This document shows positions 1 to 5,693 of a stretch of 41,683 nucleotides of DNA, piece by piece. The translations under genes were made by a program, and so were the position numbers. Source of the stretch: Candidatus Daviesbacteria bacterium (GTDB lineage Bacteria; Patescibacteriota; Microgenomatia; Daviesbacterales; UBA10151); contig DAIDIY010000014.1 in assembly GCA_027451625.1 (NCBI GenBank), positions 1-41,683 on the forward strand. Reading direction: 5' to 3'. Below the pieces are notes generated by a model, which saw only the letters and a list, made by a program, of their open reading frames with translations, was not told the origin of the DNA and made no database searches. Each line of letters opens with the position of its first letter. Positions within the stretch are counted from its first letter, which is position 1.

Positions 1-2170
<2,170 letters not shown>

Positions 2171-2183
<13 letters not shown>

Positions 2184-3619
2184 AGTTTTTCTAAATATAC
2201 TAAGTAAGGTGTCAATTCCTTGACTAAATCATCAGGGTTGGTCAGCTTAAATATTCCATTGGTGAGTTTTTGCAAAGCCTTGTCCTGGGATAACGCTACA
2301 ATCAATTTTTGTTTATGTGTTTTTAAAAAATCTAATGGCTTGTTTTGTAAAAACGGGGTGAAAATTAAGCTTAGAAGAACTGTTTGCACAGATTTTGATA
2401 TTGATGTAAGCGGGTCTTGACTGAGGATCTCCATAATCATTTGACTTTGTTTTAAAGTTAATTGAGCTTCTTGAGAGACCTCGGAACTAAATCTTGAAAC
2501 TGTCTCCAATTGTGCGGCTTGATTTAGGATCTGCTTAATTTTATATGCTAAATTATTTTGTAGTCTTTCTTGTGTTTGTTTCCCAACTCTAGAAACTGAG
2601 AGATTTAAGTCTATTGGGGGACGTTGGCCTTCGCGATAAAGATCTGCTTTAAACAACAAATGTCCGTCAGTCATTCCCATTAAGTTAGTCGGGATTAATG
2701 TAGTAAAATCGTTTAGATTGAGTTCTATTATCGGCAGAGCGGTAATAGATCCTCCTCCGGCTGTATCATTGAAATTACCGGCTCTTTCTAAAAGATGAGC
2801 ATGTTGGTAAAAGATATCTCCAGGGTATGATTCTTTTCCTGGAGATTTATTACCTAAAAGGGCAATTTCACGGTAAACTTTAGCGTGTGTTCCCATATCA
2901 TCTAAGATTACCAAAACATTTTTGCCTTGATGTTGAAAATATTCAGCTACCGTTAAAGTGGCATGAGGAGTTAAGTATATTAATGGGCTTATATCTGTTG
3001 AAGAAGTAGCAATGATTAAAGTGTGAGAAAGAGCCTTGTTCTCAGCAAGAATATTTATCAAGTTCTTAACCGATGTTATTGGTTTACCGATTGATCCATA
3101 AATGCAGATTGTTCCTGTATTTTTTTGATTAACAATTAAGTCGATTAAAAATCCTGTTTTACCAGACCTTGCATCGCCCATTATTAGCTCTCTTTGACCA
3201 AGTCCTAAAGGAATCAAGGTGTCGACTAAGGTGATGTTAGTATCAAACTGTTGTTTAATAAATTTACGATAGGAAATTCCCGGAGCCACTTTATCAATCT
3301 CTTCAACTTTTCCTAGAGAGTTTTTTTTCAGTGCTCCCTTACCGTCTATTGGTACTCCTAGGGGATTAACAGCCCTTCCTAATAGAAATTCTCCGGCTTC
3401 AATGGTCAGTTTCGAATTAGATTTTTTAAACATCATCCCTGGCTGAATTTCTCCTTCATCAAGAAGAAGGGCCTCAACTTCCTCTGGATACATAGCATTT
3501 ACTAAAGCACGAAGATTATTCTCGCTTGTTAGGAGATCGTTAATTTTTACAGTCGGTAATCCCTCTAATCTAATTAAAAAATTTTTAATGCTTTTAACGA
3601 TGCCTACTTCTTGATCCAT
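2171..3619 (-). CDS. atpA: F-type ATPase alpha subunit, short at the N-terminus
   Basis: Non-catalytic nucleotide-binding alpha subunit, 482 residues against about 500-510 in the family. The P-loop is GDARSGKT (residues 148-155) in place of the usual GDRQTGKT, and the arginine-finger segment SVSRVG is kept, as are PGDIFYQHAHLLERAG and GGGSITALPIIE. The protein begins about three residues before the first beta-barrel strand, so the roughly 20-residue N-terminal helix that docks delta in known enzymes is missing. The start cannot be moved upstream: the in-frame codons before the ATG are ATA and the delta stop TAA. It overlaps gamma by 13 bases. Identity is certain; the missing helix and altered P-loop suggest an atypical complex. 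Confidence 0.95.
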
Positions 3620-3622
3620 TAT

Positions 3623-4105
3623 TTATTTAATATAATTTCTAAGAACAGTTAAGATTGATTCCTTTTGATCTTCAATTTTTTTCCGAAGAGAGATGTCTTT
3701 GTATCTACCTTGCCAAATTAAAGCGCAGCCAGCTATCAAAGTAGGGTCAAGTTTAAAATCTACTAAAAAGTTAGGTCCATAATTGGATCTAACTTTTTGA
3801 GCGATAGATATTTTATCAGTTTTGGGAAGATCAACAGGTATATATATAATAAGGGGGGAAATCTCTTGGAGACCTTTTTTTAGCTGTTCAATATTTGTAG
3901 ATAAATTATCTTTTGAGAAAGACTTTAAAAAATCTTTACTAAGGCTCTCTAACCACATAGAATCGTCCGAACTAAATCTAGATAATAAATCTTTATTACC
4001 TTTAAAAATTTGAACGTCTAGGTATTCATCTAAGACTCTAACACGGCGTAATGCGTCTGAATATATGAAGGTGTTAGTAAGGAATAAAAGTAGAATGTCA
4101 GACAT
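3623..4105 (-). CDS. atpH: F-type ATPase delta subunit (OSCP-like), short
   Basis: Peripheral-stalk delta subunit, 160 residues against about 175-180. The C-terminal part has the family pattern: FLVDFKLDPTLIAGCALIW matches the typical segment around D-P-x-L-I-G-G, followed by a charged amphipathic helix. The N-terminal helical domain, which normally binds the N-terminal helices of alpha, is hard to recognise and begins with a hydrophobic LLLFLTN stretch. The gene sits between b and alpha as in most bacterial atp operons, with 2- and 3-base gaps, and its stop codon is in the same frame as the alpha start (TAA ATA ATG). The assignment depends on the C-terminal motif and the operon context. Confidence 0.78.
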   Translation of the reverse strand: MSDILLLFLTNTFIYSDALRRVRVLDEYLDVQIFKGNKDLLSRFSSDDSMWLESLSKDFLKSFSKDNLSTNIEQLKKGLQEISPLIIYIPVDLPKTDKISIAQKVRSNYGPNFLVDFKLDPTLIAGCALIWQGRYKDISLRKKIEDQKESILTVLRNYIK

Positions 4106-4107
4106 GT

Positions 4108-4851
4108 CTAGGTTATAAACTTTTCAACTTTAGCTTGTTCTAGTGCTTCATTTATAAGATCCATCTGGTCTCGCAAAGAGAGTTTTTTTGTTAATACTAA
4201 AGATAAAGTTCTCTCTAAAATGGCAACAACATTATCGTCAATAAGCATCATTTGCTGTTGCTTATATGAATCAATAAGTTGCCTTGCTGATTTTATCTCT
4301 AGTTCAATTGATTGAATACTTTGACGTTCAGTCTTAGCAAAAAAATCAGTTAAATCCTGCTCGAACTTTTCGATTAAATTATTGATTTTATCTTGAATAG
4401 AAGTTGTTGCCAATGTTTGGAGTTCATTAGTGGTAGTTTTTAAGTTATTTAAATAATTTGCGAAATCATCAGTTAATACAGAGATATCTGAAGATAGCTT
4501 AGTTTTTGTCTGATCAAATAATGTATTATATTTTTCTTGGTATGATTTTGTTGACTCTGAAATCGAATGAATATATTTAGATAGAATTTCTCCACGTTCC
4601 TTTTCAGATTCAGCTAGGATTTGATCCGATTTCCGAAATGCATCGAGTAAAACATCTCTAGAACGGCCGTATAAATTATTAAGATAAGTATTAGACCAAT
4701 CCCTGTCATTTTGTTGACTAGCATTATGCTCCTGTTTAATCCATAGAATAGTTGAAATTAAGGCAATTAAGCCAAAGATTATGGTTAAAAGATATGAAAG
4801 AGTTAGTAAGGGCATTAAAAAAAGAATACAACAACCATTAGCAAAATTCAA
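4108..4851 (-). CDS. atpF: F-type ATPase b subunit-like stalk protein, long form
   Basis: Membrane-anchored stalk protein, 247 residues against about 156-170 for usual b subunits. One hydrophobic segment (about residues 10-38) is followed by about 160 residues of charged, heptad-like helix expected to form a coiled coil, and then a C-terminal VVAILERTLSLVLTKKLSLRDQ segment resembling the delta-binding end of b. Translation may start at the ATG at 4851 or 12 codons later; neither has a clear Shine-Dalgarno sequence, and I kept the longer form. The extra coiled-coil length would give a longer peripheral stalk than in the standard enzyme. The 8-base gap to the c-like gene upstream and 2-base gap to delta downstream support operon membership. 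Confidence 0.75.
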   Translation of the reverse strand: MNFANGCCILFLMPLLTLSYLLTIIFGLIALISTILWIKQEHNASQQNDRDWSNTYLNNLYGRSRDVLLDAFRKSDQILAESEKERGEILSKYIHSISESTKSYQEKYNTLFDQTKTKLSSDISVLTDDFANYLNNLKTTTNELQTLATTSIQDKINNLIEKFEQDLTDFFAKTERQSIQSIELEIKSARQLIDSYKQQQMMLIDDNVVAILERTLSLVLTKKLSLRDQMDLINEALEQAKVEKFIT

Positions 4852-4859
4852 AAAGAAAA

Positions 4860-5693
4860 TTAAACTTTAATGATGATCAGAGCAGCAAGTACACCAAACG
4901 CAATCGTAATTATGGTAAATAAGATATTTAAGATTATAGAAGATAGGATTGCTTTTTCGGCTAATGGATTTCTTCCCATCGCCTCAATGCCTCTGGGAAT
5001 AGCTTTAGAAAAAACGAAAAATGCTGCTGATATGCTAATCAGGATAGTAAATCCGGATATAATATATTTGATAATTTGTAGAGCTCGTTGAGGATCTTGA
5101 GTTTGTGTTAAAGCAATAATAAAAGCATCTATCAAATGCGCCAGGGATCGAGATCCAGTAAGTTCGGCATATTCGATATGAATAGCTATGGGAATTTTAC
5201 CTATATGTACTTGCTGTGGTTTTCCTCCACCAGCAGGGACTAGGCTGACAACTTGGCTGTCAGCGAGGCTAAAGTTAGCCAAAGCAACTCCTACGACATA
5301 ACCTGAAGAAATTGCTTTTTGACCTTTTCCAGGAAAAGAAGATGAAGTGATATAATCTCCGGCTTTGATTGATCCATTTGTATCGATGACATTTACTTCA
5401 GCGGTACCGTTCCTAACGATAGGAATCCCATTTGCTCCATTTTGTTGGAGAACAAGGAGAGGGGTTTTTTGATAAATACCGAATAAATTAGGATCATAGG
5501 AAGTGCTAGATCGTACTATCCCTTGTGCAGTATTGTTTACCAAAATATCTCCATCAACAGCATTGGGATCTTGAATCTGATAAATATTAGCAATATCTGC
5601 TGAAGTAGCCTGAGCAAAAACTTTTAAATTTAGGCTGAAGAATACCAACAAAATCGAAATCGTTAATAGTAGTTTAGGATAAATCTTGGGCAT
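4860..5693 (-). CDS. c subunit-like membrane protein with secreted beta-rich domain; no proton-binding carboxylate
   Basis: First gene of the ATPase operon, 277 residues. Residues 1-28 are a signal peptide or anchor. Residues about 40-165 are a polar, Gly/Ser/Val-rich beta domain (GDYITSSSFPGKGQK, GYVVGVAL) resembling modules common in CPR surface proteins. Residues about 207-275 are two membrane helices joined by a loop, IPRGIEAMGRNPLAEKA, that closely matches the conserved Arg-Gln/Asn-Pro loop of ATP synthase c subunits. The predicted topology (beta domain outside, loop inside) agrees with c. However the second helix contains no Asp or Glu; the residue 20 after the loop Arg241, where c carries its ion-binding carboxylate, is Ile261. 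The first helix also lacks the Gly-x-Gly packing pattern. It may be a degenerate or repurposed rotor, or an anchor that evolved from one. Confidence 0.65.
   Translation of the reverse strand: MPKIYPKLLLTISILLVFFSLNLKVFAQATSADIANIYQIQDPNAVDGDILVNNTAQGIVRSSTSYDPNLFGIYQKTPLLVLQQNGANGIPIVRNGTAEVNVIDTNGSIKAGDYITSSSFPGKGQKAISSGYVVGVALANFSLADSQVVSLVPAGGGKPQQVHIGKIPIAIHIEYAELTGSRSLAHLIDAFIIALTQTQDPQRALQIIKYIISGFTILISISAAFFVFSKAIPRGIEAMGRNPLAEKAILSSIILNILFTIITIAFGVLAALIIIKV

Follow-up and report, generated by a model that had tools for sequence, protein, structure and literature searches.

Results

An atp-ordered operon with a putative ion-free rotor in CPR bacteria

In the window (the whole 41,683-nucleotide stretch of DNA analyzed here), we identified an operon, designated X, whose products we consider, with slightly better than even confidence, to form an F1-type ATP-hydrolyzing rotary motor that moves no ions and puts its work into the cell surface. 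We further propose, tentatively and with somewhat less than even confidence, that a c-type ring freed from ion transport acts as an output shaft through the membrane, that its outer collar drives or winds giant surface fibres, and that this arrangement was inherited across much of the CPR independently of the mycoplasmal F1-like machines. At the level of sequence, our analyses showed homology of the first protein, Xc, to subunit c, the operon itself, the loss of the ion-binding acid and of subunit a, intact catalytic sites, independence from the canonical Fo and linkage to fibre genes. No description of such a cluster in Patescibacteria was found in the open-access literature searched.

The window corresponds to contig C14 of a 1.15 Mb genome (98% complete). 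Most of the nearest named relatives of this genome belong to Candidatus Daviesbacteria (Microgenomates, CPR). The X operon has the order Xc-b-delta-alpha-gamma-beta-epsilon, with Xc first and all of its genes in the window on the minus strand. Xc (4860..5693, 277 aa) combines a signal peptide, a predicted extracellular beta domain and a c-type hairpin without the ion-binding carboxylate. It is followed by Xb (4108..4851), a stator-like protein with an N-terminal TM helix and a long coiled coil, assigned by position and anatomy; its true start is probably the internal ATG at 4815. Xb had no Pfam atpF match, and 79 of 84 Xb homologues carry a TM helix. Next come Xdelta (3623..4105), OSCP/delta-like with a PF00213 match just below the Pfam cut-off (E 2.4e-4), the F1 alpha-like Xalpha (2171..3619; PF00006, E 9e-61), the F1 gamma-like Xgamma (1290..2183; PF00231, E 2e-30) and the F1 beta-like catalytic subunit Xbeta (1..1321; PF00006, E 1.5e-62), which is cut by the contig end.

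Xepsilon and the fibre gene found downstream in relatives would be expected beyond that end. A search of the same genome with a relative's epsilon as query gave no match, and another of its contigs (C48:1-6587, L062) starts partway through a giant fibre ORF that carries the beta domain and may be the missing downstream neighbour across an assembly gap. Because the epsilon query came back empty and C48 starts in mid-ORF, the rest of the operon probably lies in that gap. The genome also encodes a separate canonical atp operon on contig C7, with a, a c carrying Glu at its ion-binding site, b, delta, alpha, gamma and beta, and with epsilon further downstream. There, canonical atpC lies ~3 kb from atpD (L002:8617-11757), with unrelated genes between them, most on the opposite strand.

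The catalytic machinery of X is intact. The Walker A Lys, the catalytic Glu, the Arg next to it and the Walker B Asp of Xbeta were conserved in 92/92 sequences, and the Arg finger of Xalpha in 102/102, so that the Walker A/B, catalytic Glu and Arg finger features expected of an F1 are all present. A peripheral stalk is likewise represented, delta by its OSCP match and b by position, TM helix and coiled coil only.

Xc joins a secreted beta domain to a hairpin homologous to subunit c

An earlier note, made from the letters of this DNA, had described Xc as a signal peptide, then a beta-rich domain, then a helix-loop-helix, and both sequence and an AlphaFold2 model (mean pLDDT 92.5) bore this architecture out. 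The signal peptide (5610..5693, minus strand) covers residues about 1-28 and ends in VFAQ; the model places a helix at residues 6-20, and A27-Q28 are >90% conserved in alignment A1. The beta domain (5160..5594, minus strand) runs from residue 34 to about 176-178 (34-176 in the model). It is thus present as claimed, at ~145 residues by AlphaFold2 rather than the ~125 first estimated. Two C-terminal TM helices complete the predicted membrane architecture: helix 1 (4971..5093, minus strand; residues 201-241, from AlphaFold2 and Foldseek) and the hydrophobic helix 2 (4866..4967, minus strand; residues 243-276, from the alignment and AlphaFold2). They are joined by the loop GRNPLA (4959..4976, minus strand; residues 240-245), the counterpart of the loop by which subunit c docks on F1, within the helix-loop-helix sequence GIEAMGRNPLAEKA (residues 235-248). 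Canonical subunit c has its loop inside the cell and both ends outside. Given that topology, the signal peptide would place the beta domain outside the cell.

The earlier note had also likened the hairpin to that of subunit c and staked this on a relation to AtpE detectable by profile search. That relation was found. A PDB profile search returned c subunits only (12/12 matches, best E 0.0016); 16 of 77 family members matched PF00137 (best E 3.3e-4) and 48 of 77 matched the NCBIfam subunit C model PRK07159 (best 2e-5). HHalign of Xc against AtpE gave a probability of 92.6% and a score of 42, compared with at most 18 in 30 column shuffles, and Foldseek matched the hairpin to c subunits at TM scores reaching 0.86. 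The two-helix hairpin also has the polar R-x-P loop typical of subunit c. We therefore regard homology of the C-terminal hairpin to ATP-synthase subunit c as established from sequence and predicted fold. The window protein taken alone stayed under every Pfam and NCBIfam cut-off, which leaves room for a hairpin that is a convergent two-helix anchor with a chance RNP loop. We hold this to be very improbable, since profile searches give c subunits only and many family members match c models, the HHalign score lies above all shuffles, the fold matches, and Xc stands where an operon of atp order has its c gene; taken together, the profile, fold and gene-order results reject it.

The acid required for ion binding is lost throughout the Xc family

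Ile261 (4911..4913, minus strand) lies at +20 from the loop Arg241, the site of the ion-binding Asp/Glu in canonical subunit c. It is non-acidic, as first noted, and the membrane part of helix 2 contains no Asp or Glu. The earlier note had predicted that homologues always lack the acid, allowing that Asp/Glu in their second helix would make this copy simply mutated or misread. Among 129 distinct CPR homologues, the Asp/Glu expected in mid-helix 2 was absent at +20 in every one (I 45, V 27, L 27, A 13, F 8, G 5, T 3, M 1), and only two had a Glu at +14. A mutated or misread single copy of subunit c is thereby ruled out. RNP was present in the loop of 129/129 distinct homologues, 109 of them with GRNPLA itself and the others with close variants. 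With the loop almost invariant and the acid absent, Xc has therefore kept the part that docks onto the F1 foot and lost the part that carries ions. Elsewhere in helix 2, Asn256 (4926-4928; +15 from the loop Arg) is 88% conserved among nearer homologues.

The Gly-rich packing motif of helix 1, earlier described as gone, proved reduced instead: small residues are kept at -21, -12, -6 and -3 from the loop Arg, and bulky residues occur at -23, -18 and -16. These bulky residues could forbid a normal tight ring, which counts against the motor reading.

X is an old, widespread lineage independent of the canonical Fo

Xc and its operon occurred in about 34 of 57 near relatives, and full-length Xc in about 60 of 381 phylum-wide genomes from at least 25 families (counted from the table). 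Named bearers include Daviesbacteria, Levybacteria, Roizmanbacteria, Woesebacteria, Gottesmanbacteria, Amesbacteria, Curtissbacteria, Shapirobacteria, Sungbacteria and Pacebacteria. As had been anticipated, homologues stand first in such operons, the full c-b-delta-alpha-gamma-beta-epsilon order being found at 64 of 91 X loci; in deep lineages the order is mostly the same and the acid is likewise absent from Xc. One apparently stand-alone X-type c of 81 aa (L223) turned out to be merely a contig-end truncation. In a tree, Xbeta sequences from 42 loci formed a monophyletic group (support 0.991), separate from the canonical beta of CPR bacteria and of E. coli, and X thus fits one old lineage, as judged from this phylogeny.

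No atpB-like ORF was present in any of the 91 X loci examined, and X genomes carry at most one atpB copy. Among the 54 X genomes outside the set of 57 near relatives, exactly one atpB was found in 31 and none in 23, each of the latter being at least 92% complete. Six X-bearing near relatives (G014, G017, G023, G026, G044 and G046) lack both a and c. In all, 29 X-bearing genomes, about a third and most of them >92% complete, are without subunit a. X therefore cannot depend on the canonical Fo and is retained where the ion-driven enzyme was lost.

These distributions bear on the idea that Xc and the X-type F1 are accessories of the ordinary ATP synthase, entering a mixed ring or borrowing the canonical subunit a. 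The canonical operon is indeed present in most X genomes of the window's own family. Yet 29 X genomes lack subunit a, those of the near set also lack canonical c, canonical operons also occur in genomes without X, and alpha, beta, gamma, delta, b and epsilon are all encoded by X itself. We judge the idea highly unlikely, a shared subunit a or mixed ring being largely ruled out by the X genomes without subunit a. The loss of atpB and of the ion-binding residue might otherwise mark a functionless, decaying duplicate of the atp operon; the retention of ORFs and catalytic residues in about 100 homologues across at least 25 families, and of X where the canonical operon is gone, refutes this and leaves it a negligible probability.

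The outer domain of Xc resembles phage appendage domains and recurs in giant proteins

Foldseek searches with the Xc ectodomain returned phage preneck-appendage and tail proteins in BFVD (best E 8e-10) and phage capsid shell proteins in the PDB, and the domain matched PHROG virion families. Despite this phage-like fold, a viral origin of the whole of Xc was rejected, no relative being found in a viral contig collection. The same beta domain also occurs in these genomes within giant ORFs, the longest of about 4,500 residues. Separately, a 299-aa protein (L120:18036-18935) carries the beta domain without the hairpin and follows a fibre gene adjoining an X operon.

The X operon of Microgenomates often adjoins the gene of a giant surface protein. 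In relatives, this protein has an N-terminal MerR-type HTH, one TM helix near residue 80-220 and tail-fibre-like repeats, and some giants carry an S74 chaperone. Such HTH-TM-fibre proteins (e.g., L028:1166-9619 and L038:16127-19901) contain up to thousands of residues of repeats; that a DNA-binding domain should be connected across the membrane with an outer fibre is already unusual. One fibre gene adjoining an X operon (L034:1-2484) has an intein/Hint module within it (PF14890, E 1e-22).

A fibre-like or beta-domain giant lay within 4 kb of 68 of 113 X operons, a set that includes some loci twice and in which many of the others are cut by contig ends. In X genomes, 22 of 39 HTH-fibre ORFs were near the operon, compared with fewer than one expected, although kinship within the family inflates this figure. 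The giant lies downstream of the operon in Daviesbacteria and divergently upstream in Levybacteria, Woesebacteria and Amesbacteria; such differences in layout speak for the neighbourhood having arisen more than once. Against a fibre role stand genomes with HTH-fibre giants and no X (G003, G006, G012 and G019), the many X loci with no recognizable fibre nearby, and the deep family f101, in which the X operon is accompanied by other secreted or anchored surface proteins instead of fibres. Clusters of this family (L205-L207 and L213) hold two Xc paralogues each, and one of the extra surface proteins appears DUF916-like by eye, with a C-terminal TM helix.

The linkage of X to fibre genes could also be explained if X were an assembly or export machine, in which ATP hydrolysis by F1 powers conformational cycles of Xc that help giant fibres cross the membrane, trimerize and fold, without any enduring mechanical output. 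The beta domains of Xc and of the giants are alike in kind, the Xc domain is near phage appendage domains, and some fibres end in an S74 intramolecular chaperone. We nevertheless consider this unlikely: the fibres have their own TM helix or signal, and S74 chaperones need no ATP; the full rotary stator (b and delta), which a chaperone does not obviously need, has been kept; and lineages with other surface proteins carry X as well.

In one Sungbacteria family, a similar HTH-TM module is fused to Xc itself (HTH-TM-beta-hairpin) in 4 of 6 genomes (L147:8894-10636, L249, L250 and L251), and a fibre protein of the family starts with the same HTH (47% identity). This fusion would put a cytoplasmic HTH on the rotor-like Xc and is hard to square with free rotation. 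It is easier to accept if Xc forms a ring or pore gated by ATP, or serves as a static anchor in the membrane, with F1 as a regulated switch and not a turning motor; loss of the ion site together with the reduced packing motif could mean a wider or immobile ring. Such a static or gated assembly seems to us distinctly unlikely given that gamma, epsilon, b and delta are all kept, that no part of Xc is better conserved than its F1-docking loop, and that a purely hydrophobic helix 2 does not suggest a water-filled pore.

Discussion

A proposed route from ATP to the cell surface

We favour the motor reading of X described at the outset. In F1, ATP hydrolysis turns gamma-epsilon. In X, alpha3-beta3 would hydrolyze ATP and turn gamma-epsilon, on whose foot a ring of Xc hairpins would be seated through the RNP loops, as their conservation suggests, and b and delta would brace the head against torque. 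Lacking both subunit a and the carboxylate, such a ring could not carry H+ or Na+; with no ion exchange between ring and a, the work must go elsewhere. Torque or conformational change would then be relayed across the membrane to the beta domains on the outer side of Xc, which may act on surface proteins: the HTH-TM-fibre giants in Microgenomates and other surface proteins elsewhere. Mechanical work on surface fibres is favoured because the only new part of Xc is its ectodomain and the only recurrent neighbours of X are surface proteins. The Xc ring, its rotation, the collar, the contact with fibres and the biological use are what we infer here. The likely use is to move attachment fibres on a host cell, to extend them or to release them, or else gliding powered by ATP. 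Against the motor reading, b would have no subunit a to hold on to in the membrane.

In many CPR bacteria, F1 genes are part of a cluster that is unable to use an ion gradient for ATP synthesis, and X may be misread in surveys based on counts of F1 genes. X would represent a c-type ring put to a use unrelated to ions and offers a handle on ATP use at the surface of tiny bacteria.

Comparison with known rotary ATPases and phage proteins

X shares with canonical bacterial F1Fo the gene order, all F1 subunits, the peripheral stalk and a c-type hairpin with the RNP loop. It differs in having no subunit a, no carboxylate on c, a secreted domain on c and a beta clade of its own. The alpha and beta of the window fell below the NCBIfam atpA and atpD cut-offs, the beta gene being incomplete at the contig end. 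Like the N-type (alternate) F1F0, X forms a second atp-like operon in the same genome. N-ATPases, however, pump ions with a and c, and their b and delta are fused or delta is missing. Against the NCBIfam alt_F1F0 alpha and beta models, the window proteins scored 363 of 750 and 393 of 752, below both thresholds. ProAD reported 20 F/N-ATPases with acid-less c subunits and required subunit a (PMC11738941), and X as described here would not be counted there for that reason; surveys of this kind, requiring alpha, beta, gamma, a and c, miss X (ProAD, PMC11738941).

The earlier note had called an ion-free c-ring coupled to an ATP-driven stalk a new type of machine. This must be tempered, since F1-like ATPases that lack ion-pumping parts and work for surface proteins are known from mycoplasmas (PMC3369863, PMC12994834); the separate ancestry and recognizable c-type rotor of X still set it apart. 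The nearest analogue in kind is the MIB-MIP-associated Type 3 F1-like X0 ATPase of Mycoplasma (the MSC_0619/0620 cluster, MMCAP2_0575-0581), which, like X, is an extra F1-like ATPase beside the normal one with no known ion-pumping subunit. It is needed for a surface antibody-cleavage system (PMC3369863, PMC12994834, PMC8406192, PMC11864180). In its Protein 5 (MSC_0620, MMCAP2_0577), a signal peptide is followed by a large domain and, at the C terminus, by two TM helices with a short loop and no charged residues (PMC3369863, PMC12994834). This is the plan of Xc, the two being compared by published description only. Protein 5 has been reported as non-homologous to Fo subunits, and X raises the question of whether it is a disguised c-like subunit. 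Type 3 differs in having seven genes in another order, a 12-TM Protein 1 and a small soluble Protein 2, and no b or delta; the X clusters contain no genes for Protein 1 or Protein 2, and c, b and delta are present in atp-operon order. The window alpha and beta scored 260 against a cut-off of 520 and 358 against 570 with the NCBIfam MSC_0619 and MSC_0618 models.

The Type 2/G1-ATPase of Mycoplasma mobile (MMOB1610-1670) serves gliding, its work being thought to pass across the membrane to giant surface legs (PMC8406192, PMC11864180, PMC12994834). It thus resembles the proposed X as an F1-like ATPase with work passed to the surface, and differs in its twin F1, the N-terminal extension of beta and the lack of b, delta or a known c homologue. 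Against the Type 2 NCBIfam model, the window alpha scored 331 with a cut-off of 600. Both alpha and beta are well under the curated mycoplasmal cut-offs and closer to canonical atpA and atpD.

Outside the ATPases, the beta domains of phage preneck appendages and tail fibres share the fold of the Xc ectodomain, which in Xc is led by a signal peptide and set on a membrane hairpin. X falls outside the F1Fo ATP synthases (no a, no acid), the N-ATPases and the mycoplasmal families, and is best classed with the non-ion-translocating F1-like kind, as a form of separate ancestry with a recognizable c-type rotor.
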